From Acidobacteria bacterium UBA7540 (GTDB lineage Bacteria > Acidobacteriota > Terriglobia > UBA7540): a DNA stretch of 19,971 bases. The position numbers were made by a program, and so were the translations under genes. Positions within the stretch are counted from its first letter, which is position 1. Every line of letters starts with the position of its first letter. The stretch lies in contig DLMI01000143.1 of the NCBI GenBank assembly GCA_002478145.1, positions 1 through 19,971 of the forward strand. The letters run 5' to 3'. Below, in pieces: positions 276 to 19,386 of this stretch. The notes under the pieces were generated by a model. That model worked only from the letters and a program-made list of their open reading frames with translations, was not told the DNA's origin and made no database searches.

Positions 276-1304
276 TCACTGACTGATGTGCCCGTCGCAT
301 GGGCGGTTAGCGGCCGCGTGGTAGCCCTTGTCCTGGGCTTCTTCTTGCGTCATGTACACGCCTTCCTTTGTCTTCCCGTACCACCGCGCCCCGGGGCAAT
401 GGTAAGTCCCGGAGTTCGTGTTGACCCAAACTCTTACATCGGGATTACCCCGTGTGGCGGCTGTTTGAGCCTTGGACTCGGGGTTTTGCCCATCTGCGTT
501 GAGCATCAGATTGGCATCCAACAGGTATGCCAGCCTGACTCCGGCCTTCTCCAACTGAAGCTCGATCACCGGTTCGGCCTGCCGCTCATACTCGGGTGTG
601 ATCGGAGATGGATTGTCATTGCTGAGGTCTCCGTAAGCAACCGTTTGAGCGAGTCGGTGACCCTCCATCACCCAATCCTCAATGCTACCCCTTTGCCATT
701 CAGCCCGGTCCTGGGGTGTTATCCGGCTCTCCAGCTCTGCCGCGAATGCCGCTGGATTGCCGTTGATGTGTTGGAGCAGGCCCGTGTCCCACACCCAATG
801 AAGGTTATCGGGATGACCATCAAAGATCACTTGACGCGTGTTACCGCCCTTGTCGTCGTTGTCTTCATCATGCAACGGCTGGTGCAAGTCGCCGACGAAA
901 TGAATCACGAATCTCAGGGCCTGCGCCTTGGCGTTTTTGTCTGCGTTCAGGTCCTTCAGGACGGCGAGGAATTGTTCCGTCTTGGCGATCACGCAATCAC
1001 CGTTAGGGCACTCGCGGGCCAAGTCGATCTTGGAATCCGCAAGGGGGATGTCGATGTAATGCCACGGGGCGGTCTCGCGGTGGCCGTTGCGGTAATCGTC
1101 CGCCCACACTGAGGCCTCTTCGGGACTCTCGGGCGCGAGTAGCTCCCGCATGCGAGTGGCGGTCTCCGGGTGCATGTAGTGCTCTGCGACAATCACTATG
1201 GTTTGATGGCCTTCACGACCCCAGGCGAAAGCCCCTTGCGGTGTCACCATGATAACCGCAAGGTAAGCCACCGAACGGCAGATTGTTGAGGCTCCAACAC
1301 GCAT
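276..1304 (-). CDS. Secreted S1/P1-type nuclease with C-terminal Cys-containing extension
   Basis: This is a zinc-dependent S1/P1 nuclease of 342 aa, a family that cleaves single-stranded DNA and RNA outside the cytoplasm. A signal peptide ends at AFA-27, so the mature protein begins with Trp28, the N-terminal tryptophan that binds zinc in this family. Other expected ligands are visible: His33 (WGREGH), Asp69 (WADD), His82 (WHYID), His135, Asp139 and His145 (HFVGDLHQPLH), then GGN at 153-155 and His169/Asp173 (LHWVWD). After the catalytic domain, residues about 289-336 form a compact tail with W, Y, HCPG and a terminal Cys, a small module I associate with bacterial secreted nucleases. The ATG follows directly on the stop codon of the upstream gene (1305-1307), so the two are probably co-transcribed. 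The long open frame on the opposite strand is a shadow. Confidence 0.93.
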   Translation of the reverse strand: MRVGASTICRSVAYLAVIMVTPQGAFAWGREGHQTIVIVAEHYMHPETATRMRELLAPESPEEASVWADDYRNGHRETAPWHYIDIPLADSKIDLARECPNGDCVIAKTEQFLAVLKDLNADKNAKAQALRFVIHFVGDLHQPLHDEDNDDKGGNTRQVIFDGHPDNLHWVWDTGLLQHINGNPAAFAAELESRITPQDRAEWQRGSIEDWVMEGHRLAQTVAYGDLSNDNPSPITPEYERQAEPVIELQLEKAGVRLAYLLDANLMLNADGQNPESKAQTAATRGNPDVRVWVNTNSGTYHCPGARWYGKTKEGVYMTQEEAQDKGYHAAANRPCDGHISQ

Positions 1305-2497: not shown

Positions 2498-5400
2498 CTA
2501 TGGCCGTTGGTGTGCCAAGTACGGATGGCCCGTGACCCAGCGTCGCTGCACATTCAGTGTGAATTCATACTGTTCTGCCGTGGAACGAAGTGCTTCAAAA
2601 ACCGGGCCTTCTGCCACCGCGTACCCCGCCTTATCAATCCACGTCCAGCGTCCATTTAAGAGGATGGGCGTCACATACATTTCCTCATATAGATAATCGC
2701 CCACATTTCGTGTCAATCTCACGCGTTGGTCGAATTCCGGGCTTTGCGGGCGAGCATCCTCTCGGGGTCTATTACCTTGTGCCCACTCCCGGATTGCTCT
2801 CGGATCAAGCAAATCATTAGGCACGGTTCCAGCAGGTCTTGAGGCGTAGTACTCTTGGGCTTCGCGCTCTGCCTCAGGTCGCGTTTTCGCGTCGCCGCGA
2901 GCAAGCAGGAATGCCGCAACCGGCTCCAGCGTTCCCCAAGTGAACAGCTCCTTGAGCCAGAAGGCAATCCATGGCAATCCGGCGCGTGGCCAATCGTCAA
3001 TTTCGAGAGGCATTATAGGATCGTTTTCATTCTCGTTGAGAACAACAGCAATCAGACCGCCCAGCCCCCAAGCGCTGCGATAAGCGAAGTTTTTGGACAC
3101 ATAGTCAAACCACACCGTAATCTGCTTCGGCGTCGGCTGCTCATCAAGTGTTTGCTTGCACAGCCACCATCTAAGCAGCCTGGGCCAATCGGTAAAATTC
3201 TTTTTCGATCCCAGTTTCGTGCTCAATCGGAATGAAGGTACTTGGCTCAGCCGAGCGATAACATCGGCGACAAAAGTGAATCGTTGCTCGGATGACCACC
3301 GGCCGTACTCAGCGCCCGCAGTAAGCTGCTCGACCATCGCCGGAGCTTGTTCCAGCAGGATGCTTGCAGATCGCGGCGTCAGGCTCGTCTTGTAAATCCG
3401 CCCCCGCTCTTGAGGGTCCGGATAAAGCCTCGGGATAGCACGGCCTCGACCGAGCCAGATTGCACTCAATCGCGCTTCCTGAACCGCCGAAGCATGCGCG
3501 TATGTTGCGCGCCAAATTCGGCTCAGTTCTGCTTCGAGATCGGCACCTTCGAGCGGTGAATTCCCCAGTTGCTCGACTTCGCGTAGCGCGCACAGTAAGA
3601 AGTAATCCAGCGCATCCAGGTTACGGATCGCAGCACTATCCGGCGAGGAACTCACGCCTGTTTCTTCGAGCCACCGCTCAAACCCAGCTTGTGTTCCCCG
3701 TGGACTCAAATCCCGCCATGTGGACTCAATGGCCCTCAAAAGTGCAATAAGCGCGCTAGCCGCGGAATCCTCCGCACGCTCCGTACTACCTGTAGATACC
3801 TCAAGCTCATCCCGAAGCTCTTCGTAGCCCCTCCGTTGGCGATAGCTTGCAGCATCTTCCGAAAGCACGATGAGCGCGTGTCCTTCTGTGGCGACCCCTG
3901 GCCGGCCAGCCCGACCAATCAAATTAGAAAACTCCTGCAGATCAAAGCGGGTCTGGCCGCGATAAATACTGGGCATCAGAATGTAGTTCACCGGGATGTT
4001 TACGCCTTCTGATAAAGTCGACGTGGCAATGATGACGCGCACCGTTCCCTTATCAATCAGGCGCTTCAGGCGTCGACCAACGGGCGCCGGCAACTTACCA
4101 TGATGGACCGCTATTCCTCGGGCCAATAATCTGTATTCGAACGACTCTTGGGAAAAGTAATCCGCCATAGACGCGAGACAGTCGGCCAGTAAAGCATCAT
4201 CTGTCGCGGCTTCAAAATAGGCAGGAATGTTATTCGGCCGCCATTGATCCAGAATGTCTAGGCAAGCCTCAGTGAATACGTCTATTTTTTGAGCGATTGA
4301 TATCAGGACGGTCGGTCTAGTTCCTCCGGTTCTTTCTGAAGCGAGATTCAAAGCGGCCCAGAGTGTGGGGGCGCGCATTCTCACTTCCGGCTGGTTCCTC
4401 GAGCCTAGTCGCTCGGGCATCCTAGGGAATGGCTCAGCCACATAGGGAGATGATGTCGTCCTGCCCTCCCGGAATTTGAGCGACTGGCCGTTCATCAGGT
4501 CGTAATGAATCGTAAAGGAGCCCTGAGCGCTCACCTCCAAACGACCCAGCATTTGACGGGTACTGCGGTGACGGGATTCCGTTGGTGTGGCTTCCTCGTC
4601 GCCAGAAATCCACCGAGCCAATGACGGAGCGGCGGCGGCCGCTACAGCCGATAAGGCTATCGTACGAAAGGAGTACCGTTCACGAGCTAAGTTAAGACGC
4701 GTTCCCAAAAGTTCGAGACGGTACGGCCTGCTTGCTCCTTCCTGCAGCGCCTCCGGTTCTGGCTTGCCATAATTCACTGTGTGGGCTTCGTCGATGATGA
4801 CGAGCCTGACGCGATTAAGAAACAGGATGCCCAGGAAGCGCAGCAGAGCATCGGCTTTCTCGAATGTGCATATCAAGATCGTTGGCTGATCCTGAGATAT
4901 CCAGGCGTCCGTAGGTCCCCAGTCCGTACCCCCATACAGGCCCGTAACAACGATCTTTTGCGCTGATATCCCACGGAGATCTTGATCAAGGCGTTCTTCA
5001 ACCTCTGCTGCCAGCGCACGAGACGGCACTAGGTAAAGCACAAGATTTCCTGTGCGCCATTCCTCCAGTCCTTCAGTCACGTTGGGATTGGGTTCGAAAA
5101 GCGCAGGGATTATTCCCAGCGTGGCCACCGTCGTCTTACCCGATCCAGTCGGGGTGCATAAAGCAAACGATTGCCCCTCGCGTAACCGCGATATTCCGGC
5201 CGCCTGCGCGGGCCAAACCAGTGCTCTTCTATTGGAGAACTGTGCCCTGGCAAATTGGGTGAGCGCGTCGGCGGTGTCCCTAGATGCCTCGTCCTGCATT
5301 TCCGAGATCCTCCGCCACAACGACATCTCGACATAGTTACGGGCAACAGCACCAACCAGCCTCGCGAGAATAGCTGAATAGGAATCCCGACTATGAAGAA

Positions 5401-6043
5401 AGCCATCGGCCAGCCGATCCAGTTTGTTCATTGCCCTCGCGACCATGTCATCCTTGCCGAAGCGCAAGTATCCAGAAATCGTGCCGATACACCTAATTAC
5501 ATGCTGAATAGCTGTGGCCGAAAACTCAATTCCGCTATCCGTAGTCCCCGGTGTACCCGCCAATTCTTGTTGCCAGTATTCAACAGTTGCTCTTAAGACT
5601 GCGGGGAAGTCCGCGCGCAAGAATCCGGCCAAGATGTCTGATGCGGGGTCTTCGACCGGCAGCTCCTTAAGCTCTCCAAGAGCCATGGCGGGATAACCAG
5701 CGAGTTGATAGGCAGCGGCAGAGAGCAGATGCAGAGGGGATCCCTCCGGCCTCAGGTCGGCCCTCGATAACCACTCTAGAATCTCGGCGGCACGTTTCAC
5801 GCTATTTTGCCAAGATCCGTTTGCTTCATTATTAGTACGTACAAGAAAAGCGTATTGAATCAGGAGAAACGCCTCTTCCTGCGCCCTAGCGATGTCTGAC
5901 GGAGTGAAGCTTACGAGTCCGTCGCGCCCCATCTGCCTGCGCATGCTTTGGCTATAGAGTTTGGCCTGCGCTTCAGTCAGGGCCGTTCTGGCATGCCCAT
6001 CCTGATACTCTCTCGCAATGCGGATTGACTCAGGTGTCGGCAT
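2498..6043 (-). CDS. hamB: Hachiman defence helicase HamB
   Basis: This is a 1181-aa superfamily 2, Ski2-like helicase forming the motor and sensor half of the Hachiman anti-phage system. Motif I is TPTGSGKT at 297-304, motif Ia LVPSRALAAEV near 338, motif II DEAH at 418-421, motif III SAVAA near 465, motif V TSTLSEGVNIP near 674 and motif VI GRAGRPG at 710-716. About 290 helical residues precede the motor and about 450 follow it, as expected for HamB rather than for a housekeeping helicase. Known Hachiman biology is that HamB holds HamA in check, senses DNA ends or damage, and releases HamA's DNase activity. The ATG at 6043 lies four bases after the hamA stop, so the two are translated from one mRNA. 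No frameshift or lost motif is visible. Confidence 0.93.
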   Translation of the reverse strand: MPTPESIRIAREYQDGHARTALTEAQAKLYSQSMRRQMGRDGLVSFTPSDIARAQEEAFLLIQYAFLVRTNNEANGSWQNSVKRAAEILEWLSRADLRPEGSPLHLLSAAAYQLAGYPAMALGELKELPVEDPASDILAGFLRADFPAVLRATVEYWQQELAGTPGTTDSGIEFSATAIQHVIRCIGTISGYLRFGKDDMVARAMNKLDRLADGFLHSRDSYSAILARLVGAVARNYVEMSLWRRISEMQDEASRDTADALTQFARAQFSNRRALVWPAQAAGISRLREGQSFALCTPTGSGKTTVATLGIIPALFEPNPNVTEGLEEWRTGNLVLYLVPSRALAAEVEERLDQDLRGISAQKIVVTGLYGGTDWGPTDAWISQDQPTILICTFEKADALLRFLGILFLNRVRLVIIDEAHTVNYGKPEPEALQEGASRPYRLELLGTRLNLARERYSFRTIALSAVAAAAAPSLARWISGDEEATPTESRHRSTRQMLGRLEVSAQGSFTIHYDLMNGQSLKFREGRTTSSPYVAEPFPRMPERLGSRNQPEVRMRAPTLWAALNLASERTGGTRPTVLISIAQKIDVFTEACLDILDQWRPNNIPAYFEAATDDALLADCLASMADYFSQESFEYRLLARGIAVHHGKLPAPVGRRLKRLIDKGTVRVIIATSTLSEGVNIPVNYILMPSIYRGQTRFDLQEFSNLIGRAGRPGVATEGHALIVLSEDAASYRQRRGYEELRDELEVSTGSTERAEDSAASALIALLRAIESTWRDLSPRGTQAGFERWLEETGVSSSPDSAAIRNLDALDYFLLCALREVEQLGNSPLEGADLEAELSRIWRATYAHASAVQEARLSAIWLGRGRAIPRLYPDPQERGRIYKTSLTPRSASILLEQAPAMVEQLTAGAEYGRWSSEQRFTFVADVIARLSQVPSFRLSTKLGSKKNFTDWPRLLRWWLCKQTLDEQPTPKQITVWFDYVSKNFAYRSAWGLGGLIAVVLNENENDPIMPLEIDDWPRAGLPWIAFWLKELFTWGTLEPVAAFLLARGDAKTRPEAEREAQEYYASRPAGTVPNDLLDPRAIREWAQGNRPREDARPQSPEFDQRVRLTRNVGDYLYEEMYVTPILLNGRWTWIDKAGYAVAEGPVFEALRSTAEQYEFTLNVQRRWVTGHPYLAHQRP

Positions 6044-6047
6044 ATTG

Positions 6048-6956
6048 CTACGTCCGGTATATCCGGTCCACTAGTCCATTCAGGTCATTGACCTGATACT
6101 CAAGCCCGACCAGTTGTCGATTCAGCGTGTAGGCACTATTAGCCGCCGTCGGAGACATCCAGCTCGTTCTGTCTCTCGCTCGGGGCCGGTCACCGCAGAC
6201 GTAAATTACGCCATCGTATCGGGCGACCCGCCGGCCCCCCGATGCCCGGTATTTTATGAGAGCTTCCTGCCATGCCTGCGCTTCCGGAGTGTGGTAGTGG
6301 TTCAGCAATTCGACCAGCTCGCGGATGCTGTCGGGAATAGACGGACCGGCATTCAGCTTGCTGTGTGCTTCATTCAGTTTGTCGGATCGATGGTTGACGA
6401 GACACTTGGCTTCGAGTGTCAACACATGAGTTATGGAGTTTGAGGTGTCCTTCACGAAAGCGATGGCATCGTCACCGGTTCTTCCCGGTCGTTGCTCCCC
6501 GATTGCATCCGGGTCGTGACTGTGCCCGTCTCTCAGCCGTTGATTAATGCGTTCGAGATGCTGGAACTCGACATCGTGAAATCTAAACAAGAGAGCAGGC
6601 ACCTGCCAATCATCTCTGCCATGGATGTCCCAGTGTTCCACGGCCAACGCCGCGAAACTTTCCCCTAGATATCCTTGCAAAGTTATTCGATGCAACATGC
6701 CGGGATAGTTGACTGCCGGATCTAATTCAGGACCAGTGAAGGGTGATAGTTGATCTTCAAAACCGCTTCGAAGGCGTGTCCGGGCATCCTCCAATGCCTC
6801 CTGAAAATACGCGTGAAGCTCTGTGCTCACTGTGTCGCGCATCGAACCATCTTCGCGCCAAAGGCGCAGGTGGTAAGATCCATTCCGCCCCATCCTCGGC
6901 TGCTCGACGAGCCAAGCGTGCAAGACGGCGCGATTAATTCGGCAAGATCGGAGCAT
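6048..6956 (-). CDS. hamA: Hachiman defence nuclease HamA (DUF1837)
   Basis: This 302-aa protein matches the DUF1837/HamA family, the effector nuclease of Hachiman. The PD-(D/E)XK-like core is visible: Glu99 in YLGESFA, an acidic GDDAIAF at 161-167, and Glu182-x-Lys184 in LTLEAKCLV. The C-terminal part (from about 205) is helical and contains the conserved-looking RYDGVIYVCGD strand. All catalytic positions seem intact. It is the promoter-proximal gene, four bases before hamB. The ATG at 6956 is the only start available before an in-frame stop at 6987-6989; no strong ribosome binding site precedes it. In cells, uncontrolled HamA degrades DNA, so expression with HamB is expected to be tightly linked. 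Confidence 0.92.
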   Translation of the reverse strand: MLRSCRINRAVLHAWLVEQPRMGRNGSYHLRLWREDGSMRDTVSTELHAYFQEALEDARTRLRSGFEDQLSPFTGPELDPAVNYPGMLHRITLQGYLGESFAALAVEHWDIHGRDDWQVPALLFRFHDVEFQHLERINQRLRDGHSHDPDAIGEQRPGRTGDDAIAFVKDTSNSITHVLTLEAKCLVNHRSDKLNEAHSKLNAGPSIPDSIRELVELLNHYHTPEAQAWQEALIKYRASGGRRVARYDGVIYVCGDRPRARDRTSWMSPTAANSAYTLNRQLVGLEYQVNDLNGLVDRIYRT

Positions 6957-7381: not shown

Positions 7382-7486
7382 ATGCCTTGGAAGGAGTGTT
7401 CGGTGATGGATGAAAGACTGCGTTTTGTGGCGCGACTGCTGGAAGGCGAAGAGACCCGCACGGTGTGGATACCAAGTTATTGGTAG
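7382..7486 (+). pseudogene. Truncated IS481-family transposase (N-terminal 34 codons)
   Basis: The encoded peptide starts MPWKECSVMDERLRFVARLL and then leaves the family pattern at about codon 24, ending at a TAG. The helix-turn-helix remainder and the whole DDE catalytic domain are absent, so no activity is possible. The next 100 bp to the caspase-like gene contain nothing recognisable. Confidence 0.7.
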
Positions 7487-7585: not shown

Positions 7586-8332
7586 CTATGCCCCCGGACG
7601 GGTTCGAGGAAAGATTTGGTTCAAAAGGTTCGTCGGACCACGATCCAGCAAGTCTGCGGCAAAGTCCAGCAGAGTGCCCGTGATTTCTTCGCCGGGGCCG
7701 GATTCGCGCCGCTTCCATCGGTAAAGCTGACCGCCCGTCAAGACATAATTGGCAAACCGCAGGGCTGTCGACGTGTCCTCGTCGATCCGGCTGTCCTTGA
7801 GCAAGATGCAGACAAGAACCGCCAGCGGCGACAATTGATGCGGATAGACGGCGGCGGGAGAGGCAAAGATCTGGCGGAGCTTTGAGATTGGAGCGAACAG
7901 CTCCCTTACCGCAGCCGAGCGACCGGCGCGGCAGGCCGCCAGAAAACAAAACTCCGGCTCGAGTTGGCGAAGCCAATTTCCCACCACGCCCCAATTGCGA
8001 AGACCGTCCGCCGTGAGGACGAGTCCTGATTCGTTGCTATGGCCGAGGACAAGAATGGAGCGAAATCGACCGTGCTCCTCGAAGACCCTGGCGAGGTCCC
8101 TTGCGAGTTCTGGCTCGGAGGAGGTTTGCACAAAGGCGATGATTTTATCTGGGAATAACGTTTTGAGAAACTCCGCGAATGGGCGGCCGAAGTTCAATCT
8201 GTCGGCGGCAAGTTGCCGGGAGTCGCACTCGATGACGAGAAGGTGGGCGCGGGCGGGCCGTCGCGGCCTCGCGGCGGACCGGCGCGGCTTTATCCGGCGT
8301 GACATTTGAGCTGATTTTCGACGCGACGGCAT
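7586..8332 (-). CDS. Caspase/CHAT-like cysteine peptidase domain protein
   Basis: The 248-aa product starts with a basic tail (about 28 residues rich in Arg) followed by a caspase-like alpha/beta fold: strand HLLVIECD near 30, strand IIAFVQT near 64, strand SILVLGHSN at 92-100 and strand FCFLAACRAG at 128-137. His98 in LGHSN and Cys134 in LAACRAG, 36 residues apart, fit the catalytic His-Cys dyad of caspase and CHAT proteases. In bacteria such proteases are mostly effectors or processing enzymes in stress and phage-defence systems. The ATG at 8332 has AGGAAGG nine bases upstream; an internal ATG at 8305 is an alternative. It lies 127 bp downstream of the metallopeptidase gene in the same direction, so it may be part of that operon or have its own promoter. 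Family assignment rests on motif reading only. Confidence 0.7.
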   Translation of the reverse strand: MPSRRKSAQMSRRIKPRRSAARPRRPARAHLLVIECDSRQLAADRLNFGRPFAEFLKTLFPDKIIAFVQTSSEPELARDLARVFEEHGRFRSILVLGHSNESGLVLTADGLRNWGVVGNWLRQLEPEFCFLAACRAGRSAAVRELFAPISKLRQIFASPAAVYPHQLSPLAVLVCILLKDSRIDEDTSTALRFANYVLTGGQLYRWKRRESGPGEEITGTLLDFAADLLDRGPTNLLNQIFPRTRPGA

Positions 8333-8459
8333 CGGGAAAAGCCTTCCTCGCCCGGAGCGCTATTGTACTAGCTTGATCGCTGTGATCGGGATTCGCGAAG
8401 GGCAGAGAAACGGCGAGTGACCAGCCCAGATGCTGTTTGCGACTTGGGTCGTACCTGTT

Positions 8460-9293
8460 TCATTCTTCCATGCGGCCGTCGGAGCGGCGCGAGGCTTTCG
8501 CTTCTTCGAATTCTTGAAGTTCAATGAGCATTCTCTCGTCTTTCCACCAGAGCAAAGACAGAACCCAGCCGGTGCGCGGGCGGAAAGAGTGTTCCTGGAT
8601 GTAATATCGCCCGGCGGTGGGGTGATCGAACCAGGCCCTGGCCGGAACCTCGCCGTTAAGCTCCCCTTCTGCGGCAGAGTTGAGGAGTTGAAGAGCGAGC
8701 GTGCTCTTTTCGGGCTTCCCGGAAGGCCAGAGCTGATCGGGAATGCTGGGAGCACGCACGAACCATTCCCTGCCCTCGCTGCCGTAACAGACGAGCATCG
8801 CCGGAAGAGGCCCGTATTCGACGACGCGGATTGCCGTGGCCGTGAGGCTCGTTGTGAATTTCTGCGCAAGACTTCTTACGGCAGTAAAATCCACAGCCCT
8901 TAAGGTTTTTGCAATCGGCACGAAAAGCGCGACGGGGAGCAGAAGCCCGCTGGCGTAGCGGTTCGCCAGCGCTTCGGGATCGCTGGCGGACCATTCTTTC
9001 AGGAACTGGGCCTCCTGACAGCTCAAGGAAGCCTTGCCCCTGTCGTACATCCAGTGCCCCAATTCATGGGCTGCGCAGAAGCGTTGCCTTGGGCGCGGGG
9101 ATGCGGAATCGACGGTAATGATGGCGTTGTTGCCGTTTCCGACGATCCGGGCGGCGCAGCCGGTCAAGGAACGGTACCTGACCGTGGCGCCACAATGGAA
9201 AGCGATGGCCTCAATGTCAATCTCATCCGGGGCCGTTATGCCCAGCTCTTTCAGAAGCTGGTCAGGAAACTTGAAATAATCCTTATTCTCCAT
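8460..9293 (-). CDS. ImmA/IrrE-family zinc metallopeptidase
   Basis: The 277-aa protein has the gluzincin signature HELGH at 76-80 (CAAHELGHWMYDRG) and a downstream acidic ligand, Glu107, in the segment ending LANRYASGLLLP, the standard ImmA/IrrE arrangement. Members cleave or inactivate a partner repressor or regulator, as ImmA does with ImmR and IrrE with DdrO. About 150 residues beyond the core form an additional C-terminal domain (EGREWFVRAPSIPDQLWPSG, then WVLSLLWWKDERMLIEL). I chose the ATG at 9293, which overlaps the end of the upstream gene by 11 bp; a TTG at 9347 would add 18 unlikely residues. The tight overlap with the helical protein and sigma-like gene implies that one of them is its substrate or partner, which is inference. 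Confidence 0.88.
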   Translation of the reverse strand: MENKDYFKFPDQLLKELGITAPDEIDIEAIAFHCGATVRYRSLTGCAARIVGNGNNAIITVDSASPRPRQRFCAAHELGHWMYDRGKASLSCQEAQFLKEWSASDPEALANRYASGLLLPVALFVPIAKTLRAVDFTAVRSLAQKFTTSLTATAIRVVEYGPLPAMLVCYGSEGREWFVRAPSIPDQLWPSGKPEKSTLALQLLNSAAEGELNGEVPARAWFDHPTAGRYYIQEHSFRPRTGWVLSLLWWKDERMLIELQEFEEAKASRRSDGRMEE

Positions 9294-9732
9294 CGGTTTC
9301 GTCGCGTTGAAGCTTTTCCAATATACCCAGCTCAGCCAAATCCTCAAGATAGGATTCGATGTCGTTGTCGGTGAGCTTGTCCAAATCCCGGTACTGGGCG
9401 GTCACGAATTGCGTGAACTGCGGACGTTGAATAAAGATCGAGAACAGCCTACGGCGCGCGGCAGGCGTTTCGGGAATCGCGTATGACTTGCGCTCCATAC
9501 CCTCTATCTGGTGGCTGTACGCCGCACGGGCGGCATTCAGCGCCCGCTGCCGAAATGCCTTCACCGTCGCAAGCATCATTGCCTTCATACGGGCCGCTTC
9601 GGCATCCGGATCGATTCCGGTCAGGCGGAGCTCCTCAATGACTTCGGCGTCGCTCTCCTCAAGTATCGAGTCAGCCAGTGCATCTGTCAGGGCCTCCAGC
9701 CTTTGCTCGTCGGTCCTATCTTTGCTGGCCAT
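9283..9732 (-). CDS. Small helical hypothetical protein in sigma-like/ImmA operon
   Basis: No named family is recognised for this 149-aa protein. It is acidic at the N-terminus, then almost wholly helical, with AAYSHQIEGMERKSYAIPET in the middle and a C-terminal LTDNDIESYLEDLAELGIL segment followed by a Lys/Arg/Asp tail. Its start overlaps the stop of the sigma-like gene by one base (TAATG) and its end overlaps the metallopeptidase start by 11 bp, so all three must be made from one transcript. A role as the regulated partner, such as an anti-sigma-like or repressor protein cleaved by the ImmA/IrrE peptidase, is a guess from position and size. Confidence 0.8.
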   Translation of the reverse strand: MASKDRTDEQRLEALTDALADSILEESDAEVIEELRLTGIDPDAEAARMKAMMLATVKAFRQRALNAARAAYSHQIEGMERKSYAIPETPAARRRLFSIFIQRPQFTQFVTAQYRDLDKLTDNDIESYLEDLAELGILEKLQRDETDGE

Positions 9733-10361
9733 TAGTTTCCCCCTCTGCCAAGATGTGCGGTCATGCCGGCATCATCCAGACGGCGGCGGATTCTGCGTAC
9801 AATGGTGTTGTAATCATTCTGCGACAGCTCCCAAAGCTCGCGAACCCCGGCAGGGTCGCACCCTTCCTGCCAGGCCATCAACACCATCTGCGCCTTCTCA
9901 TCCCCCTTGAATAGAGTCTCGATCCGCTCCAGTGTTTGATTCTGGTGGCGTGTTTGTTCAGGGTCTGGACGGCGGGATGGCACGCTGTCGAGCGGACTGA
10001 AGACTTCTCCTTCAACGTCCGTTCGAAGGACATCGGCCTCGGTCACGGGCGTTTCCGCCTGCTTGAACGATTTTGCCCAGTTGCTCGAAATGCTCGTGAT
10101 CGCGCCGGCGAGGAATCTGAAAAATCCAACCTTGACTTTGTTCCATCGCCGCGTGTCTTCCAGGAGGTCCGTCAACGCTGTATTGAGGAGATCATCTCCC
10201 GTTCGGCCTTCCGCCTTGGGACCTAGGCAGAACGTGCGGTAATCCGCATAGCGCCGCAGTTTCGCCCACTCTCCGGGCGTAAGCGCCTCGATTGCCGCCG
10301 TAATTTCCTCAAAGGTGGCCGCCGCTTCCTCAGGGACGCGGCGCGGAGGCTTGGTCACCAT
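9732..10361 (-). CDS. Sigma-70-like (ECF-type) transcription factor
   Basis: The 209-aa product has the layout of a short sigma factor. Residues about 24-100 resemble region 2 (LTPGEWAKLRRYADYR, then GRTGDDLLNTALTDLLED, then KVGFFRFLAGAITSISSNW). A linker follows, and residues about 143-197 resemble region 4 with a helix-turn-helix (LERIETLFKGDEKAQMVLMA, then CDPAGVRELWELSQNDYNTI and a basic VRRIRRRL helix). It is divergent from classical ECF factors and may have lost core-polymerase binding. I chose the ATG at 10361, with GGGGGAG five bases upstream; the longer frame uses a TTG at 10439. It is the first gene of a tight operon with a helical protein and an ImmA/IrrE peptidase. Confidence 0.78.
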   Translation of the reverse strand: MVTKPPRRVPEEAAATFEEITAAIEALTPGEWAKLRRYADYRTFCLGPKAEGRTGDDLLNTALTDLLEDTRRWNKVKVGFFRFLAGAITSISSNWAKSFKQAETPVTEADVLRTDVEGEVFSPLDSVPSRRPDPEQTRHQNQTLERIETLFKGDEKAQMVLMAWQEGCDPAGVRELWELSQNDYNTIVRRIRRRLDDAGMTAHLGRGGN

Positions 10362-10560
10362 GTGCGCTCCCCCGAAGATTCTACTGCATGTCCCTCCATC
10401 CAGAAAGTGCTCGCCGGGGCGACTCCATTGACGGGACAAAGAGCGTTTTTTTCGTTGCCTGTGTCGATGGCGCGGCGAAAACGAGCAGTGATCTAGTAGG
10501 GGCAGTCCAAATCCGCCCCGTCACGGCGTCCGGCAGCGTAAACATGACGATTCGCGAGGT
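10362..10560. promoter_or_regulatory. Divergent intergenic region between sigma-like operon and 332-aa gene
   Basis: About 200 bp separate two genes transcribed away from each other, so promoters for both must lie here. The minus-strand Shine-Dalgarno GGGGGAG is at 10367-10373; just upstream on that strand a TAGAAT hexamer could be a -10 element, but no matching -35 is evident. On the plus strand GAGG is at 10556-10559. If the sigma-like protein autoregulates, its target motif should be found here. Confidence 0.4.
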
Positions 10561-11559
10561 ATGAACAATATGGCTGAGCGCAACTGGAAGAGGATTTTTC
10601 GAAAAGTACCCGATCCAATCATCAGGAAGGCGTCGAAGATTCCGGGCGACAATGTCATGGCGGCATGCGTGAGGAAAATTCCCGCCTCCGTCCTTAGCTC
10701 CGGCACGTACAAGCATCTTGGCATGCGGATGAATGGAAACAGCCCGGAGTTCCCCAGCCGGCTCATGCCACAGCCCAAATTCGGGCCGTGCTCGCTCCGG
10801 AATGCGCAGGGCGAGGAGATTGTGCGCAAGGACCTGCCCATGAAGACGAAGACCTACAGCTTCGATGCGCCCAACTGGGGCGACTGGAGCAATGGAACGC
10901 ACGAGGTCTCGTGGGACCGGCAGGTCTACCAGCGCGAGTTCGTCCCGCCGAAGGAGCTGGAGATTTCCATCACGTTGCTGGCAACGGAGGCCGGAGGCGA
11001 CCCGGTTTTTGTCTTCCGATTCCGCGTGGAAGAAGTTCTGAACAAGCGGGCAGCGGATTTCGGGAAGGCGCTGTTTTTCAATCTGAACCTTCTCCAGGAA
11101 AATACGGGCGCAGCAGACGTGTTCGCCGCAGACGCTGACCCCACTCAGTATCTGAATACGATTTCCGTCCACTGGGAAATCCTTCCTCCCGGAGAAGGCA
11201 GGGATGTGCTGGTGCGCATTCTGGCGAAGTTCCGGGAGCCTGGCAAGGAATTGAGGGAAAAACTGGAGGACCGGTATTCGTTCCTCGAAAAGCTCAAGCC
11301 GGTCGCCTATGTCAGTGGCACGAGCGGTTTTCAGCGCTATTTCGGGGCCAAATTCGCCGACAATCTTGTAGTTTTCGAGAACCTGGAGTACGGGAACGCA
11401 ATCTATGTGATGTTCGAAGATTGGCAGGAGCTGAGCAAGCTCAGCCGCTTGGAACTGCTCAGGGACCGCCGGGGTGCGGGCTTTGAGCGCATTATCCATC
11501 GAAAGGGATGGAAGGACGAGGTCAAGAGGGCTGTCGAGGCTCGTCTCGTACCGGCGTAG
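10561..11559 (+). CDS. Hypothetical 332-aa protein, paired with DUF3892 gene
   Basis: No named family is assigned. The reading frame has ordinary codon character, and a conserved-looking block runs from GTYKHLG (about 48) through RKDLPMKTKTYSFDAPNWGD (about 89), WDRQVYQREFVPPKELEISI (about 117) and LLQENTGAADVFAADADPTQ, then ISVHWEILPPGE. The pattern suggests a beta-rich domain; the C-terminal 80 residues are more helical and basic. Two ATGs are possible: the one at 10561 is one base from GAGG, that at 10570 ten bases, which is more usual. The 372-aa open frame on the opposite strand is a compositional shadow. It is 46 bp upstream of a DUF3892 gene and divergent from the sigma-like operon. 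Confidence 0.8.
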   Translation: MNNMAERNWKRIFRKVPDPIIRKASKIPGDNVMAACVRKIPASVLSSGTYKHLGMRMNGNSPEFPSRLMPQPKFGPCSLRNAQGEEIVRKDLPMKTKTYSFDAPNWGDWSNGTHEVSWDRQVYQREFVPPKELEISITLLATEAGGDPVFVFRFRVEEVLNKRAADFGKALFFNLNLLQENTGAADVFAADADPTQYLNTISVHWEILPPGEGRDVLVRILAKFREPGKELREKLEDRYSFLEKLKPVAYVSGTSGFQRYFGAKFADNLVVFENLEYGNAIYVMFEDWQELSKLSRLELLRDRRGAGFERIIHRKGWKDEVKRAVEARLVPA

Positions 11560-11605
11560 TGATCTGCGACAGCTTGCAATTTATCAAAACCGACAGGAGG
11601 CCGAG

Positions 11606-11890
11606 ATGGCAAAAAGCGCACGCATTCGCTGCATCAACAAGACCGACCGTCTAAACCCGCACGAGAGGATTCGCAATGTTGGCGGGGTCAATCCCGACGG
11701 CGGGCGGTGGAAACAGAGCCAGCAGCAGACGATTCAGGAGATCGAATCCGGGGAGTGGGAATTCTACGTCAGCCAAGCCGGCAGGACCGTGAACGTGATT
11801 GTCGCCACGCACAACGGCAACAAGTACATCAAGACGGAAGCCGACGGGATTCACCCGGACAATCTCCTGGCTCTTCCGGAGTGCCCGTAA
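11606..11890 (+). CDS. DUF3892 domain protein
   Basis: This 94-aa protein is a clear DUF3892 member over its full length: RIRCINKTDRLNPHERIRNV with VGGVNPDGGRWK, then QQQTIQEIESGEWEFYV, and a C-terminal NKYIKTEADGIHPDNLLALP. The family is a small alpha/beta domain of unknown function. The start is certain: AGGAGG at 11595-11600 lies five bases before the ATG. It follows the 332-aa gene by 46 bp and is probably co-transcribed with it. It converges on the zinc-ribbon/HEPN gene, which ends 33 bp away. Confidence 0.9.
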   Translation: MAKSARIRCINKTDRLNPHERIRNVGGVNPDGGRWKQSQQQTIQEIESGEWEFYVSQAGRTVNVIVATHNGNKYIKTEADGIHPDNLLALPECP

Positions 11891-11923: not shown

Positions 11924-13009
11924 TCATGGAAGAAGAGGTGCGCGTGCGGGAAGTTGAGCGTTTGGGAGAAGCCAGTCTTCGAGAGTGCTGATAACGTTCA
12001 AACAGATTGCGGCAAACCGGTTGATTTCTTCGCCAAGCAAACGAACCGTTTCTCCGGGCTGTTCGTCCTGGGCGAGCTGGAAATAGTGTTCGTCCGCAAT
12101 CCCCAGATTGTGTCCTATGACATGGCGCTTCTGTATATTGATAGTCAGGAATGCGAGGTCCCCGCCGGTGAGCCTAGAAAAAGGGTCGATGGCGAGGATC
12201 TCGAAATACTTGCGGACGCGGTCAATGTTCTGAAAGATCGTTATCTTTGACAGCAATTCGACCGTCTGTGCAGGCCGGTGCTGCCTGACAAGGTAGCGGT
12301 AAACGGTCTTCAGGGCTGTTTCAAAGGCGGTGAGCACGTCCTCGTGGGCGTTGCCCATGAGGCGATATGCGAGTTCGGGTTGGCCGGCTTCGTTCGTCTG
12401 ATCGGCCAAGATGACTTGGTCGCGGACAAGCTGTACTTCGTGCTGGAAGTGCAGCGCCAGATTCGGGGCGCCGCAATCGGGACAGAAGAGCGCAATGGCA
12501 TAGACGCCATAAGGACGGCGGCAGATGCCGCACTCAAGATTGCGAAGCAGGTCATTTCTCAACGGTGCGGGCTTGGGACGATATGGGCGTTTAACGTCCA
12601 TACTGGCGGAGATGAAAGTGTTGCGCGGCTGGTGGCGGTTGAAATCCCTGGCGTGTTGTTCAAGAAAGTCGCCGATGTCCTGCTCGGCTTCCCACATAAT
12701 CAGGTTTTTGATGGCCTCGATGTCTTCGAAATGGACGAACTCCCGGTCGGCAGCAATGTAGCCGGAGTAAGGACATACGGTCTGGCCGGGACCGGGCGGG
12801 CGGCGGATACGCGAACGGTGCTCCTCAGAAATGGTGCGGTCGGCTGGTGCCTGGCCGATGAGAAAGAGGCGAGGCGAAGCATCGGGATTGGGCGAGTATT
12901 GATACGCCTTGCCGGAGCTGGTCAGGGGTATCGGCACCGAAAGAAGCATGTTGTTGGGGTCGCCCCCGACTTTGTGACTTTCAATGCGGCGCAAGCGAAT
13001 GTCGCTCAT
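11924..13009 (-). CDS. Zinc-ribbon protein with C-terminal HEPN-like domain
   Basis: The product has 361 aa from the ATG at 13009 (AAGGGA about nine bases upstream); a GTG at 13036 is less likely. A CPYSG segment near residue 79 may be a further metal site. Residues 160-179 carry CxxC-x12-CxxC (LECGICRR ... FCPDCG), a zinc ribbon. The C-terminal half is helical and contains INIQKRHVIGHNLGIADEHY, in which Arg295-x4-His300 matches the RX4-6H signature of HEPN ribonuclease domains, followed by a long final helix. HEPN proteins are often RNA-cutting toxins in toxin-antitoxin and abortive-infection systems. It is divergent from the 44-aa/451-aa gene pair across a 254-bp region. HEPN assignment is by motif and helix context only; the zinc ribbon is directly visible. 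Confidence 0.78.
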   Translation of the reverse strand: MSDIRLRRIESHKVGGDPNNMLLSVPIPLTSSGKAYQYSPNPDASPRLFLIGQAPADRTISEEHRSRIRRPPGPGQTVCPYSGYIAADREFVHFEDIEAIKNLIMWEAEQDIGDFLEQHARDFNRHQPRNTFISASMDVKRPYRPKPAPLRNDLLRNLECGICRRPYGVYAIALFCPDCGAPNLALHFQHEVQLVRDQVILADQTNEAGQPELAYRLMGNAHEDVLTAFETALKTVYRYLVRQHRPAQTVELLSKITIFQNIDRVRKYFEILAIDPFSRLTGGDLAFLTINIQKRHVIGHNLGIADEHYFQLAQDEQPGETVRLLGEEINRFAAICLNVISTLEDWLLPNAQLPARAPLLP

Positions 13010-13263
13010 CTGCTTTTTCCCTTTGAGGGGGTGCACAGTGTTGCATCACGCATCATAACATTGATAGCGAAGAAAAGGGGAAGACGATCGGCGGATTCGG
13101 TCAATGATGCAAAACTTACCAATTTCGATATGTTTCTGAAAGCGCCAGAATGCGCCCTATGTGGGAAAACAACAAGGCGGAAACCGAGGGCGGGATTGAT
13201 GCTTTCGAAAAAGCGATGATGCGCAGAAAATATTGTATTCTGTATTCTGCTGAGGAACAAGAA
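13010..13263. promoter_or_regulatory. Divergent regulatory region with inverted repeats
   Basis: This AT-richer 254-bp gap lies between divergent genes. TTGCATCA at 13041-13048 has its exact reverse complement TGATGCAA at 13105-13112, and a second GCATCA follows at 13050-13055. CATTGA at 13060-13065 is likewise mirrored by TCAATG at 13101-13106. Near the plus-strand gene there is a tandem GTATTCT repeat within 13230-13250. These fit operator-like sites shared by the two divergent transcripts, but no convincing -35/-10 pair was found. Confidence 0.4.
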
Positions 13264-15813: not shown

Positions 15814-15834
15814 TTGACATGGGAGGCCATGAAA

Positions 15835-18800
15835 ATGCGATGTGTCGCTCGAATGGGCTTGAGAGCCATCCTGGCACTGGCGGTCGGTCAATGTCTGGGC
15901 TTACGAGCGCAGCAGGTCCAAGGCAGCTTCACAGGAACGGTTAGGGACCAGTCGGGTGCCCTCGTTCCCGGCGTCAGGGTAACAGCGTTGGAAGTGCAAA
16001 CAGGCGGCAGCCGAAGCGCCGTAAGCTCAGCTGATGGTTCCTATACGATTCCCCTTTTGCTGCCCGGGTTGTACCGGCTGACGGCAGAGAAGACGGGCTT
16101 TGAGAGGACCGTTCGAGGCCCCATTAACCTTCTCGTCGATGCGCATCCGCGGGTTGACTTTAAGATGAATGTGGGCGCGCAGACAACCAACGTCACGGTG
16201 GAGTCGACCGCACCTGTGCTGGACACGCAGACCGCCACGGTGGGGACAACCGTCGAGCAGGCCAAGATCAGTCAGCTTCCTTACAACGGCCGCAATTTCC
16301 TCCAAACGTTGCTCTTTACGCCGGGAGTCGTACCGGGGGTCCAGGGGTCGGAACTGAACAATAACCGAGGCGGGTCCATCAACGTCAACGGACTGCGTGA
16401 AGACATGAACAGCTTTCTGCTGGACGGCATGAGCAACACTTCCATCGCCATTGGGACCTACGCCGCCGCGCCGCCGCTCGATTCTATCCAAGAATTCAAA
16501 ATGGAAACCGGCATCTATGATGCCAGGTTCGGTGTGTCGGCCGGCGCCCAGGTGAACATTGTCACGAAGTCCGGAACCAACCAGTTGCACGGCTCGCTTT
16601 ATGAATACCTTCGCAACAACAATCTGGACGCGAGGAATTTTTTTGAGCCCAACGTGCCGCCCTTTCATCGCAACCAGTACGGGGCCAGCCTGGGCGGGCC
16701 GATTGTGCTTCCGCACGTCTATAACGGCCACGACAAGACCTTCTTTTTCTTAAACTACGAAGGTTTGCGCGACAACCACTCCTTCTTCAGCCGCGCCCAC
16801 GTGCCCACGCTCGCCGAGCAAAGCGGTGATTTTTCTGACCTTGCGCCGGGGTCTCCATGCCCCCACACGACAGTTCTTCTGGATCCCCTGTTGCTCGTCA
16901 ATCCTGCCGCGCCGCTGACAATTCCCGGCAATAACCTGAGCAACATTGCTTCAACTCTTCCGGCGGGCACGCTCGACCCCGTTGGTCGAGCCCTCGTCGG
17001 CCTTTACCCGTCTCCTAACATCCCCAATGCCTCATGTGGGGCAGAGAATTACCAACAGCAGGTGCTGCGCCTAATCGATACGAACAGCTTCGTCGGCCGC
17101 GTCGACCACCGTTGGGGATCGAAGGACAGCCTTTTCTATCGCTATAGCCTGACTGCCGAATCCTCGTTGGCTCCTTCGGGACTGCCCACAGGGGTGCCAG
17201 GCTATGGTACGCGGCGCGTGGACTGGTTCGACCAGACAGGGATCGATTGGACCCACATATTCACCCCGATGCTGCTAAACGAAGCGAAGGTCGGCTACAA
17301 CCGCTGGCAGTACCGTTGGAACAATGAGGACCAAGGGAGGGACATCAATCAAATCCTCGGCCTGAAGGGTGCGCCTACGGCCTACCGCGACACCGGAGTG
17401 CCCAACCTCAGCTTCGCCGGCTATGACGGTCTCGGGGCGGCAGGCATCTACCCCCAATTCGGCGCCGTCAATTCCTTTCAGTACGCGGACACGCTCACCT
17501 ATATCCACGGCAACCATTCCTTTGATTTCGGCGCGGACATCCGCCCGATCAAGCGCGGAAACTTCTTTCAGGACATCGATGCGCGCGACGCGTACAGCTT
17601 CAATGGGGTGGCGACGGGTAGCGTGGTGTTTGCAGGTCTGCCCTCGAGTGCTCAGACGGCGCTTTTGGCGGCCTGTCCTCCGCCAAGTTGTGGCTTCGGC
17701 AACGGCGTAGCTGACGCCCTGTTCGGCCTGCCCACGAACTGGATCCGCGGTTCTTCGGGCTACATTTCGGGGACGGGCACGGAGTACGATTTCTTTGTGC
17801 AGGACCGCTGGAAGATTCACCGAAACCTCACGATGACGCTCGGCCCCCGGTATGAATACAATAGCCTGATCACGGATAAGTACAACCACTTCGGCAGCTT
17901 CGACTTCAACAAGGGCTTACTGCTTGCTGCGGGTACGAGTGCGGCCTCCCTGCTGAATTTTGTCGGCACGACCGGGGCCTCGGGATTGCCCATTGGACAA
18001 TTCGAACAGGTCGGGACGGAGAACCTGGGAAGCACTTCGGAAAACCGGGCGCTGCAACGCCCCGACCACACTGACTTTGGGCCTCGCCTCGGCCTTGCCT
18101 GGATGCCCTTCGGAAATGAGAAGACCGTCATCCGCACCGGCGGAGGCGTCTACTACGACCAGATGGTCGGTCAGCTTTATTTCCAAAAGAGCTTCAATCC
18201 ACCTTATTTTCAATTGACCCAAGGCGATCTGCTGGACAATGAGCGGGCCGTTTTGACCGCAGTGTCCACAACGCCCTCTGCGGGCGGGCTGCCGCTGGCC
18301 ACTGGTCTGCTTCTCCAGAACCTTTTCGTGGCACCCTCGCTCACGCAGGCGCTTTTCCCGGCCCTTGACCCGGTCAACCTGGACGTCAAGGACGCAAGGA
18401 TTTTCGAATGGACGTTCGACGTGCAACGACAGTTGGGATCCTGGCTCCTCGACGTGGGCTATGTCGGCACTCGGGGACTAAGATTGCCTATCGAGTGGGA
18501 CCCGAACCAGCCGAACAACGCCCTCTACAGGGGCGGCTCAACCTGCATCTCGGGCACGCCTGCGGATACACCTTGCCCGCGGCCCTACCCTAATTTCCAG
18601 ACGATGTCCTACACGGATCCCATCGGCACATCCATTTATCATTCCTTGCAGGTCAAGGTGGAGAGGCACTACAGCAATGGCTTGGCGATTATCGGCGCCT
18701 ACACCTGGTCGAAATCCCTCGACGACGACTCCGCCTACTTCGGGACCAACGCCAGCCCAGGGTTCCCACAGAATTCTTACGACCTCGCTGCGGAGAAGGG

Positions 18801-19386
18801 CCGCTCGGACTTCGACTACGAACAGCGCTTCTCGGTCGCTTATGTGTACAACCTGCCTTTCGGCGACAAGTTCGGAAAGCTGCACAACCCGAAGGCGAAC
18901 TACGTCATTAGCGGCTGGGAAATAGCGGGGATCGCCATGCTGCAATCCGGGGCGCCCTACACGCCCACCGTCGACGGCAACCCCAGCAACAATATCGACA
19001 ACTATGATCGTCCGAATGTGGTTCCGGGCGTCAGCTTGTATCCCGCCCATAAGAGCGTCAACGAATGGGCAAACCCCGCCGCATTCTCCTACCCTGCCCC
19101 CTACACCTTCGGAAACGCGGGACGAAATATTCTGACCGGGCCGGGTCTGGTCGACTGGGACTTCTCGCTGATTCGAAATTTCAGACTGTGGGAATCGAAA
19201 ACTCTCCAGTTCCGAGCGGAGATGTTCAATATTCTCAATCGGCCGAACTTTACGTTGCCCAACGCTGACTGGAGTTCAACCTCCTTTGGTGTGATCGGGA
19301 ATACGGTGCAGCCCATCGCCGGCGAGGCTTCAGGCGGACCGGGCGACCCGCGCGAGATCCAATTCGCATTGCGCCTGACATGGTAG
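15835..19386 (+). CDS. TonB-dependent receptor, Oar-like, with carboxypeptidase-regulatory domain
   Basis: This complete 1183-aa outer-membrane receptor is of the acidobacterial Oar-like type. The chosen ATG at 15835 has GGGAGG eight bases upstream; an ATG at 15829 is too close to it. A signal peptide runs to about Ala25 (LRA-QQ). A carboxypeptidase-regulatory (Ig-like) domain follows (about 29-110: GSFTGTVRDQSGALVPGVRV, then DGSYTIPLLLPGLYRL), then the plug (about 115-260, with VNGLREDMNSFLLDGM and AQVNIVTKSGTNQLHGSLYE) and a long beta barrel ending in ALRLTW with the terminal aromatic residue needed for outer-membrane assembly. Such receptors import large substrates, often glycans or peptides, using TonB-ExbBD energy; the substrate cannot be told here. 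No SusD partner is adjacent. The frame is intact. Confidence 0.93.
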   Translation: MRCVARMGLRAILALAVGQCLGLRAQQVQGSFTGTVRDQSGALVPGVRVTALEVQTGGSRSAVSSADGSYTIPLLLPGLYRLTAEKTGFERTVRGPINLLVDAHPRVDFKMNVGAQTTNVTVESTAPVLDTQTATVGTTVEQAKISQLPYNGRNFLQTLLFTPGVVPGVQGSELNNNRGGSINVNGLREDMNSFLLDGMSNTSIAIGTYAAAPPLDSIQEFKMETGIYDARFGVSAGAQVNIVTKSGTNQLHGSLYEYLRNNNLDARNFFEPNVPPFHRNQYGASLGGPIVLPHVYNGHDKTFFFLNYEGLRDNHSFFSRAHVPTLAEQSGDFSDLAPGSPCPHTTVLLDPLLLVNPAAPLTIPGNNLSNIASTLPAGTLDPVGRALVGLYPSPNIPNASCGAENYQQQVLRLIDTNSFVGRVDHRWGSKDSLFYRYSLTAESSLAPSGLPTGVPGYGTRRVDWFDQTGIDWTHIFTPMLLNEAKVGYNRWQYRWNNEDQGRDINQILGLKGAPTAYRDTGVPNLSFAGYDGLGAAGIYPQFGAVNSFQYADTLTYIHGNHSFDFGADIRPIKRGNFFQDIDARDAYSFNGVATGSVVFAGLPSSAQTALLAACPPPSCGFGNGVADALFGLPTNWIRGSSGYISGTGTEYDFFVQDRWKIHRNLTMTLGPRYEYNSLITDKYNHFGSFDFNKGLLLAAGTSAASLLNFVGTTGASGLPIGQFEQVGTENLGSTSENRALQRPDHTDFGPRLGLAWMPFGNEKTVIRTGGGVYYDQMVGQLYFQKSFNPPYFQLTQGDLLDNERAVLTAVSTTPSAGGLPLATGLLLQNLFVAPSLTQALFPALDPVNLDVKDARIFEWTFDVQRQLGSWLLDVGYVGTRGLRLPIEWDPNQPNNALYRGGSTCISGTPADTPCPRPYPNFQTMSYTDPIGTSIYHSLQVKVERHYSNGLAIIGAYTWSKSLDDDSAYFGTNASPGFPQNSYDLAAEKGRSDFDYEQRFSVAYVYNLPFGDKFGKLHNPKANYVISGWEIAGIAMLQSGAPYTPTVDGNPSNNIDNYDRPNVVPGVSLYPAHKSVNEWANPAAFSYPAPYTFGNAGRNILTGPGLVDWDFSLIRNFRLWESKTLQFRAEMFNILNRPNFTLPNADWSSTSFGVIGNTVQPIAGEASGGPGDPREIQFALRLTW

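Follow-up and report, generated by a model that had tools for sequence, protein, structure and literature searches.

The 19,971-nucleotide stretch of contig DLMI01000143.1 from Acidobacteria bacterium UBA7540, referred to here in its entirety as the window, carries three overlapping genes for an extracytoplasmic function (ECF)-like sigma factor, a small acidic partner protein and a zinc peptidase of the CapP family. These first three genes are the conserved unit of the locus, and the trio recurs across several bacterial phyla. An earlier note on this DNA had drawn a four-gene circuit in which the peptidase lifts a block on the sigma-like factor and a caspase-like protein acts as effector; its gene layout holds as described (four same-strand genes, overlaps of 1 bp and 11 bp, the fourth gene after 127 bp), but the fourth gene does not belong to the conserved set. 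It is fairly probable that the trio is a regulatory cassette in which CapP cuts an anti-sigma-like partner, so that the sigma factor is released onto its own and a divergent promoter. The cassette and its divergent flank comprise the following features, with lengths in amino acids (aa).

9732..10361, minus strand: ECF-like sigma factor, 209 aa, with sigma-2 and sigma-4 regions (family profile against PDB; Pfam)
9283..9732, minus strand: partner, small, acidic and helical, 149 aa; predicted CapP-cleavable anti-sigma factor
9328..9402, minus strand: CapH-like tail of the partner, residues 111-135, TAQYRDLDKLTDNDIESYLEDLAEL (hhalign to the CapH tail)
8460..9293, minus strand: CapP-family zinc peptidase (M78/ImmA-IrrE), 277 aa (PADLOC, PDB, tree)
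9054..9068, minus strand: HELGH zinc/catalytic motif of CapP, residues 76-80 (motif script)
10404..10432, minus strand: candidate sigma-dependent promoter toward the trio, GTCAATGG-N11-CGAGCA (self-pair test)
10463..10491, plus strand: candidate sigma-dependent promoter toward the 332-aa and DUF3892 genes, GTCGATGG-N11-CGAGCA, with equal spacing (self-pair test)
10561..11559, plus strand: divergent gene, 332 aa, family unassigned by Pfam, PADLOC and NCBIfam
11606..11890, plus strand: divergent DUF3892 protein, 94 aa, from an internal ATG of the open reading frame (ORF) 11474-11890 (PF13031)
11924-13036, minus strand: 370-aa protein (weak PADLOC PDC-M14A match)

The conservation of the unit is seen first in a tblastn search with the window CapP, which matched 29 plasmid records; the 12 analysed, from Alpha-, Beta- and Gammaproteobacteria plus a single Bacteroidota, each have a sigma-like gene upstream of CapP. 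Together with the best 80 of at least 349 CapP relatives from genomes sampled one per species, and with the window itself, these form a set of 93 loci. A sigma-like ORF stands upstream of CapP on the same strand in 88/93, a figure that is not a general rate because the loci were picked for closeness to the window CapP; the five without a detected sigma factor are L023, L029, L071, L068 and L069, in the last two of which CapP sits at a contig end. All 88 sigma-bearing loci have an ORF of 123-153 codons in the place of the partner between sigma and CapP, and this ORF overlaps the sigma gene in 83 of them, by 4 nt in 74. A reciprocal search from the sigma profile identifies 7/396 Acidobacteriota genomes and 2/395 genomes in the phylum to which G004 belongs (a Desulfuromonadales metagenome-assembled genome that carries locus L014), with partner and CapP present at 9/9 of the sigma-anchored loci, three of which repeat earlier ones. 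The gene-neighbourhood comparison proposed in the earlier note thus divides its four genes: the trio recurs together (88/93), and the caspase-like gene does not recur with it.

The HELGH metallopeptidase that the earlier note had placed in a repressor-cleaving family is a CapP-family enzyme, matching the PADLOC capP model (E=1.5e-56) and the CapP structure 7t5t in the PDB (E=3e-10), and a script finds the HExxH-type motif in 92/93 CapP ORFs, the miss being the short ORF of L071 (~140 codons). Members of this family cleave the repressor CapH, according to the available part of one account (PMC13373217). Searches with the PADLOC capP model, covering the classes to which G001 (the gammaproteobacterium that carries L075; 20/369 genomes) and G006 (the Bradyrhizobium that carries L031; 25/337 genomes) belong, returned 48 loci, among which 38 have a gene for an XRE-type helix-turn-helix (HTH) protein, CapH, directly upstream of capP, four have sigma and partner (two of them repeating L075 and L031) and six have neither. 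In the window there is no HTH CapH directly upstream of CapP; sigma and partner hold that place. Scores against the CapP profile are disjoint, at 229-369 bits for the sigma type and 46-101 bits for the others. In an unrooted tree of 79 CapPs, drawn from 38 of the 88 sigma-type loci and 41 of the 48 PADLOC-found loci, all 42 sigma-linked rows fall on one side of one branch (support 100/97), the window CapP among them, and sigma linkage requires one change on the tree as against 26 in shuffles. The CapP-linked HTH proteins of L112, L124, L127 and L130 belong to a different subtype, whose alignment shows an insertion following the HTH. The PADLOC capH model PDLC04142 matches in 14/14 control genomes, probably through generic XRE HTH proteins, and capH calls by this model alone are therefore unspecific; its match to the 149-aa partner (E=0.002) was given no weight of its own.

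The sigma assignment is carried by the family. The family profile aligns with both domains of the ECF factor SigH (5zx2; E=1.1e-7, positions 39-183), and Sigma70_r2 is found in 21/70 family members and Sigma70_r4_2 in 2/70. The window protein scores 18.5 bits against NCBIfam TIGR02937, below the cut-off of 42.9.

The partner is modelled by AlphaFold2 as all-helical, and its family has a median isoelectric point (pI) of 4.8. Against the PDB the model has no match at E<=0.001 and no HTH match; known anti-sigma folds and CapH structures are both missing from its structure matches, an absence that carries no weight either way. Scans of genomes and of viral sequences with the 149-aa family matched its patterns and confirmed no relative, and weak Pfam matches to acyl-CoA oxidase and other families were taken as chance. 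The C-terminal tail of the partner resembles the tail of CapH around a nearly invariant Arg (Arg115 in the window; 91/92 partner rows). Comparison by hhalign gives P=2.3e-5 for the tails only, over a region of our choosing and 30 of the 38 CapHs, and 0.0025 at full length, and also reports a further, weak match (P 0.14) between the partner tail and the CapH HTH. The pattern R-x4-[LIM]-[STD]-x2-[DT] occurs in 42/92 partner rows and 21/38 CapHs at spacing 4, and in at most 3 at other spacings; the eight CapHs of other subtypes that lie outside the hhalign comparison are included in these motif counts. By analogy with DdrO, cut between Leu106 and Arg107, the predicted cleavage site of the window partner would lie between Tyr114 and Arg115. 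Distance matrices indicate that all the proteins covary, with no preferred link between sigma and partner.

The most recurrent neighbour families of the trio lie upstream of the sigma gene on the opposite strand. A scan of 140 of the 166 divergent-side proteins, compared with 140 of the 195 proteins of the downstream flank as control (26 and 55 fell outside by size or count limits), finds the Pfam families ThiF (22), Multi_ubiq (14), Prok-E2_E (10), Prok-JAB (8), SMODS (7), DUF6791 (6), patatin (6), SAVED (4), DncV-like (4), DUF3892 (4) and HORMA (2). Each of these matches at most 1/140 proteins of the control flank, as none is listed there and the list extends to single matches. The top PADLOC families on the divergent side are E1-E2, Cyclase and Effector models, which can be read as putative parts of cyclic oligonucleotide-based antiphage signalling systems (CBASS); those of the control flank are mostly restriction-modification models. 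Judged from these domain matches, the divergent genes often appear to be Bub-like (ubiquitin-like), CBASS and related operons, and "often" is the strongest wording because near-duplicate loci were left uncollapsed and immune operons were not tallied per locus. On Cereibacter sphaeroides plasmids the trio lies back to back with CBASS genes. In the window, the 332-aa protein stays below threshold with Pfam, PADLOC and NCBIfam, and BLASTP at E<=1e-3 finds no relative of it in the remaining 92 loci; the 94-aa protein matches PF13031 (DUF3892) at E=4e-21, and its BLASTP relatives, present in nine further loci, are always encoded on the strand that diverges from the trio. An immune setting of the window trio is indicated by this divergent DUF3892 gene, by a Hachiman HamB gene nearby and by the neighbours of the family elsewhere. 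A gene of ~395 aa, which we take to be metallo-beta-lactamase-like by motif, occupies the first divergent position in five loci (L057, 5634-6821, minus strand, and four others).

Sites that could serve a dedicated sigma factor are found between the trio and these divergent genes. A promoter model built de novo on the regions upstream of sigma in 87/93 loci yields TGTCCG-N18-GCATA, with a log-likelihood of 463 versus 142-154 in three shuffled sets. In many loci the motif is doubled back to back, one copy mostly beginning 47-76 bp before the sigma start and the second pointing toward the divergent genes; among eight plasmid loci with annotation, five have the end of the second copy 46-63 bp ahead of the annotated start of the divergent gene, and three have weak sites. 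When training and test loci are split by sigma similarity and the motif search includes shift moves, the best site of a held-out locus lies within 300 bp upstream of sigma in 45/87 loci (~2% expected); a first cross-validation without shift moves had settled on a shifted motif, with 33/87. At least one site scores above the rest of the locus in 47/87 held-out loci, and both do in 18. Independently of any motif, a self-pair test for a two-block word shared, with identical spacing, by both strands, applied to the 87 loci and six sigma-anchored loci, gives p<=0.05 in 47/93 upstream regions, about 5 being expected, and 44 of these 47 carry a GTC/TCCG/TCGG core. A stringent pattern, made from the own sites of the tested loci, has 15 matches in 45 Mb (11 genomes or records, two of them without a match), 14 of which fall at the cassette in converted coordinates, and its reversed form has none; the sites thus look largely private to the cassette. 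On this sequence evidence the paired sites are likely back-to-back promoters of the trio sigma gene and of the divergent operon.

These elements suggest a switch. The partner would bind and hold the sigma factor; CapP, perhaps activated by single-stranded DNA or DNA damage as in CapH/CapP and PprI, would then cut the CapH-like tail of the partner at a hydrophobic-Arg bond, before the nearly invariant Arg, and the freed sigma factor would fire both promoters, one serving the cassette and the other the divergent, often antiviral, operon. As the sigma factor would drive its own operon, positive feedback may result, and in the window the targets on the divergent side would be the 332-aa and DUF3892 genes. 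Computed support comes from the conservation of the trio, the grouping of CapP, the CapH-like tail, the often antiviral divergent genes and the promoter-like pairs of the family. Trio conservation, membership of the peptidase in the CapH-cleaving CapP family and the CapH-like tail also sustain, as a prediction, the suggestion of the earlier note that the peptidase lifts a block on the sigma-like factor.

Several observations weigh against this reading. No sigma factor is detected in 5/93 loci (two being contig ends), and the window sigma protein by itself matches no Pfam family. The partner model resembles no solved structure found, anti-sigma ones included, and its N-terminal part has a partial correlation of 0.41 with CapP versus 0.17 with sigma, so that binding of sigma by the partner is not favoured by covariation. 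At full length hhalign assigns a probability of 12%, and the tails-only comparison depends on the chosen region and subset of CapHs already given. Near-duplicate loci (e.g. L007, L070, L073, L074, L076) were kept in the neighbour counts. As to the promoters, 40/87 held-out loci have no site above their own background, the limits of place and spacing in the self-pair test were fixed after the motif had been seen, the window yields no site with the family matrix, and the window pair is weak and diverged (13/15 bases; p=0.03 against 100 shuffles, uncorrected).

The likeness of the two tails, together with distance matrices that link the partner to CapP above sigma, could also be expected if the partner were itself a CapH-like repressor acting on DNA or RNA polymerase, with CapP derepressing and the sigma factor a cofactor or a regulated gene. 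We consider this unlikely, since a helical model without an HTH match and with a median family pI of 4.8 is unlike a DNA binder, the sigma and partner genes overlap in 83/88 loci, and bipartite sites at promoter-like spacing suit a sigma factor more than a repressor operator. The substrates of M78 peptidases include more than a single type of regulator, and the presence of all three genes together in 88 loci is also compatible with the sigma factor, for instance a zymogen-like one, being the protein that CapP cuts, and with the partner as an adaptor that brings CapP to it. It is the partner, however, that bears the CapH-like tail with its nearly invariant Arg (such a tail was not looked for in the sigma factor), and this arrangement seems decidedly less probable than release of the sigma factor by cleavage of the partner.

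The fourth gene of the earlier note and the Hachiman genes beyond it make up the other side of the locus.

7586..8332, minus strand: caspase/CHAT-fold protein, 248 aa; a neighbour, not core (fold search, dyad)
8039-8041 and 7931-7933, minus strand: His98 and Cys134 of the caspase-like protein
6048..6956, minus strand: HamA-position gene, 302 aa, D...LEAK motif (position; motif by eye)
2498..6043, minus strand: HamB helicase of Hachiman, 1181 aa (PADLOC, PDB)

An antiphage circuit of all four genes with the caspase-like protein as effector would fit the co-directional position of that gene 127 bp downstream of CapP, and the protein is what it was said to be: a fold search supports a real caspase/CHAT fold, and the dyad, His98 and Cys134, is invariant, its profile returning nothing relevant against solved sequences. 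Relatives of it putatively share two contigs (lengths 43576 and 12729) with partner relatives, but of the 18 caspase-family contigs of at least 8 kb these two, paired by length alone, are the sole ones that reappear in the lists for partner or sigma. A caspase-family match is confined to the window among the 93 loci, and on this ground the circuit is rejected as a conserved unit. The caspase-like gene is thus absent from most trio loci; a count of 0/396 was obtained for Acidobacteriota genomes (in a search without a positive control), a viral scan with its family matched patterns and confirmed no relative, and the flank downstream of CapP lacks the enrichment of immune families seen upstream. 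We accordingly regard the four-gene circuit as very improbable, and the gene is best read as a local neighbour that could be reached by read-through from the trio. ImmA/IrrE peptidases occur in toxin-antitoxin pairs and 12 loci lie on plasmids, but a toxin-antitoxin or plasmid-maintenance module that has no part in immunity and merely sits in defence islands is scarcely credible given divergent genes that are often Bub-like or CBASS, a control flank with at most 1/140 proteins per family, and promoter-like sites that face the divergent genes 46-63 bp from the start in 5/8 plasmid loci.

A gap of 629 bp, with a transposase-like remnant, separates the caspase-like gene from the Hachiman pair; the remnant (7382-7477, plus strand; translated start MPWKECSVMDERLRFVARLLEGEETRTVW) is presumably an IS481-type transposase N-terminus, cut short. 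HamB is identified by PADLOC (E=1.6e-61) and by the solved HamB 8vx9 (E=6e-25). The gene 4 bp before it carries by eye a HamA-like nuclease motif, and its product matches neither the PADLOC HamA model nor the sequence of solved HamA. No HamA or HamB relatives are found by BLASTP in the other 92 loci.

Release of a sigma factor by proteolysis has precedents. In RseA-sigmaE it follows proteolysis of the anti-sigma factor in membrane signalling, whereas the trio is predicted to be cytosolic and stands beside immune operons. In the type III CRISPR systems CalpL-CalpT-CalpS and Craspase/Csx30/RpoE, an immune protease releases a sigma factor that a small inhibitor holds; there the protease is a Lon-SAVED or TPR-CHAT protein under a CRISPR effector, whereas in the trio it is an M78 CapP, and a PADLOC scan of ten window proteins gave no match to cas genes. 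The nearest known relative is the CapH and CapP pair, reportedly described by Lau et al. in 2022. As far as the available portion of its description extends, it shares with the trio a CapP-family zinc peptidase whose gene accompanies that of its likely target next to immune operons, CBASS among them, and a tail with an aromatic or hydrophobic-Arg step. The trio differs in having a sigma factor and a helical acidic partner in place of an HTH repressor, in belonging to a separate CapP group, and in being predicted to activate, whereas cutting of CapH lifts repression. CapW/BrxR, CapH with CapP, and CapK with CapS are presented, in the part of the source available, as three controller families that all lift repression; CapW/BrxR and CapK with CapS likewise control adjacent immune operons including Bub and CBASS, but through a WYL sensor or a kinase/STAS repressor rather than a protease and a sigma factor (PMC13373217). 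IrrE/PprI of Deinococcus, in the available excerpts, is an M78 protease activated by single-stranded DNA that cuts DdrO between Leu106 and Arg107, a bond that parallels the predicted hydrophobic-Arg step of the trio, although DdrO is an XRE repressor of DNA-damage-response genes and not an anti-sigma factor (PMC10904395, PMC8072749). EACC2-caspase neighbourhoods, a predicted conflict system, place an ECF sigma gene near a caspase-domain protein; the accessible sections mention neither CapP nor a small partner, and in our loci the caspase-like gene lies outside the conserved set (PMC8195603). Proteases are joined to Hachiman, and caspases occur in defence loci such as caspase-nuclease (canu), where, in the portion of that study available, the protease activates a paired nuclease; in the window 629 bp separate the caspase-like gene from the Hachiman pair, and a nuclease of that kind was not identified (PMC12799240). 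No description of a sigma factor with CapP was found in the open-licence PubMed Central literature, among the top-listed matches where these were many, and the combination is undescribed in the available parts of PMC13373217, PMC12839542, PMC8195603, PMC7159879 and PMC1779556.

Self-killing immune operons must stay quiet before infection. If the proposed mechanism is correct, a sigma switch released by a protease would act in the opposite sense to derepression. Its response, with feedback, could be all-or-none, and as a travelling cassette it would bring along a promoter code of its own. The similar tail on two otherwise different proteins offers a test case for a protease gaining a new substrate, and the Cereibacter sphaeroides plasmid trio beside CBASS makes the switch directly testable.

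Among the remaining genes of the window, the 370-aa protein (11924-13036) is related (E=9e-25) to one encoded on the divergent flank of the trio locus L042, where a DUF3892 relative sits between the trio and that gene. Further out, the window holds what we take to be a secreted S1/P1-type nuclease (276-1304, minus strand) and, presumably, a large TonB-dependent Oar-like outer-membrane protein (15814-19386, plus strand); S1/P1-type nucleases and Oar-like outer-membrane proteins are typical of Acidobacteriota.

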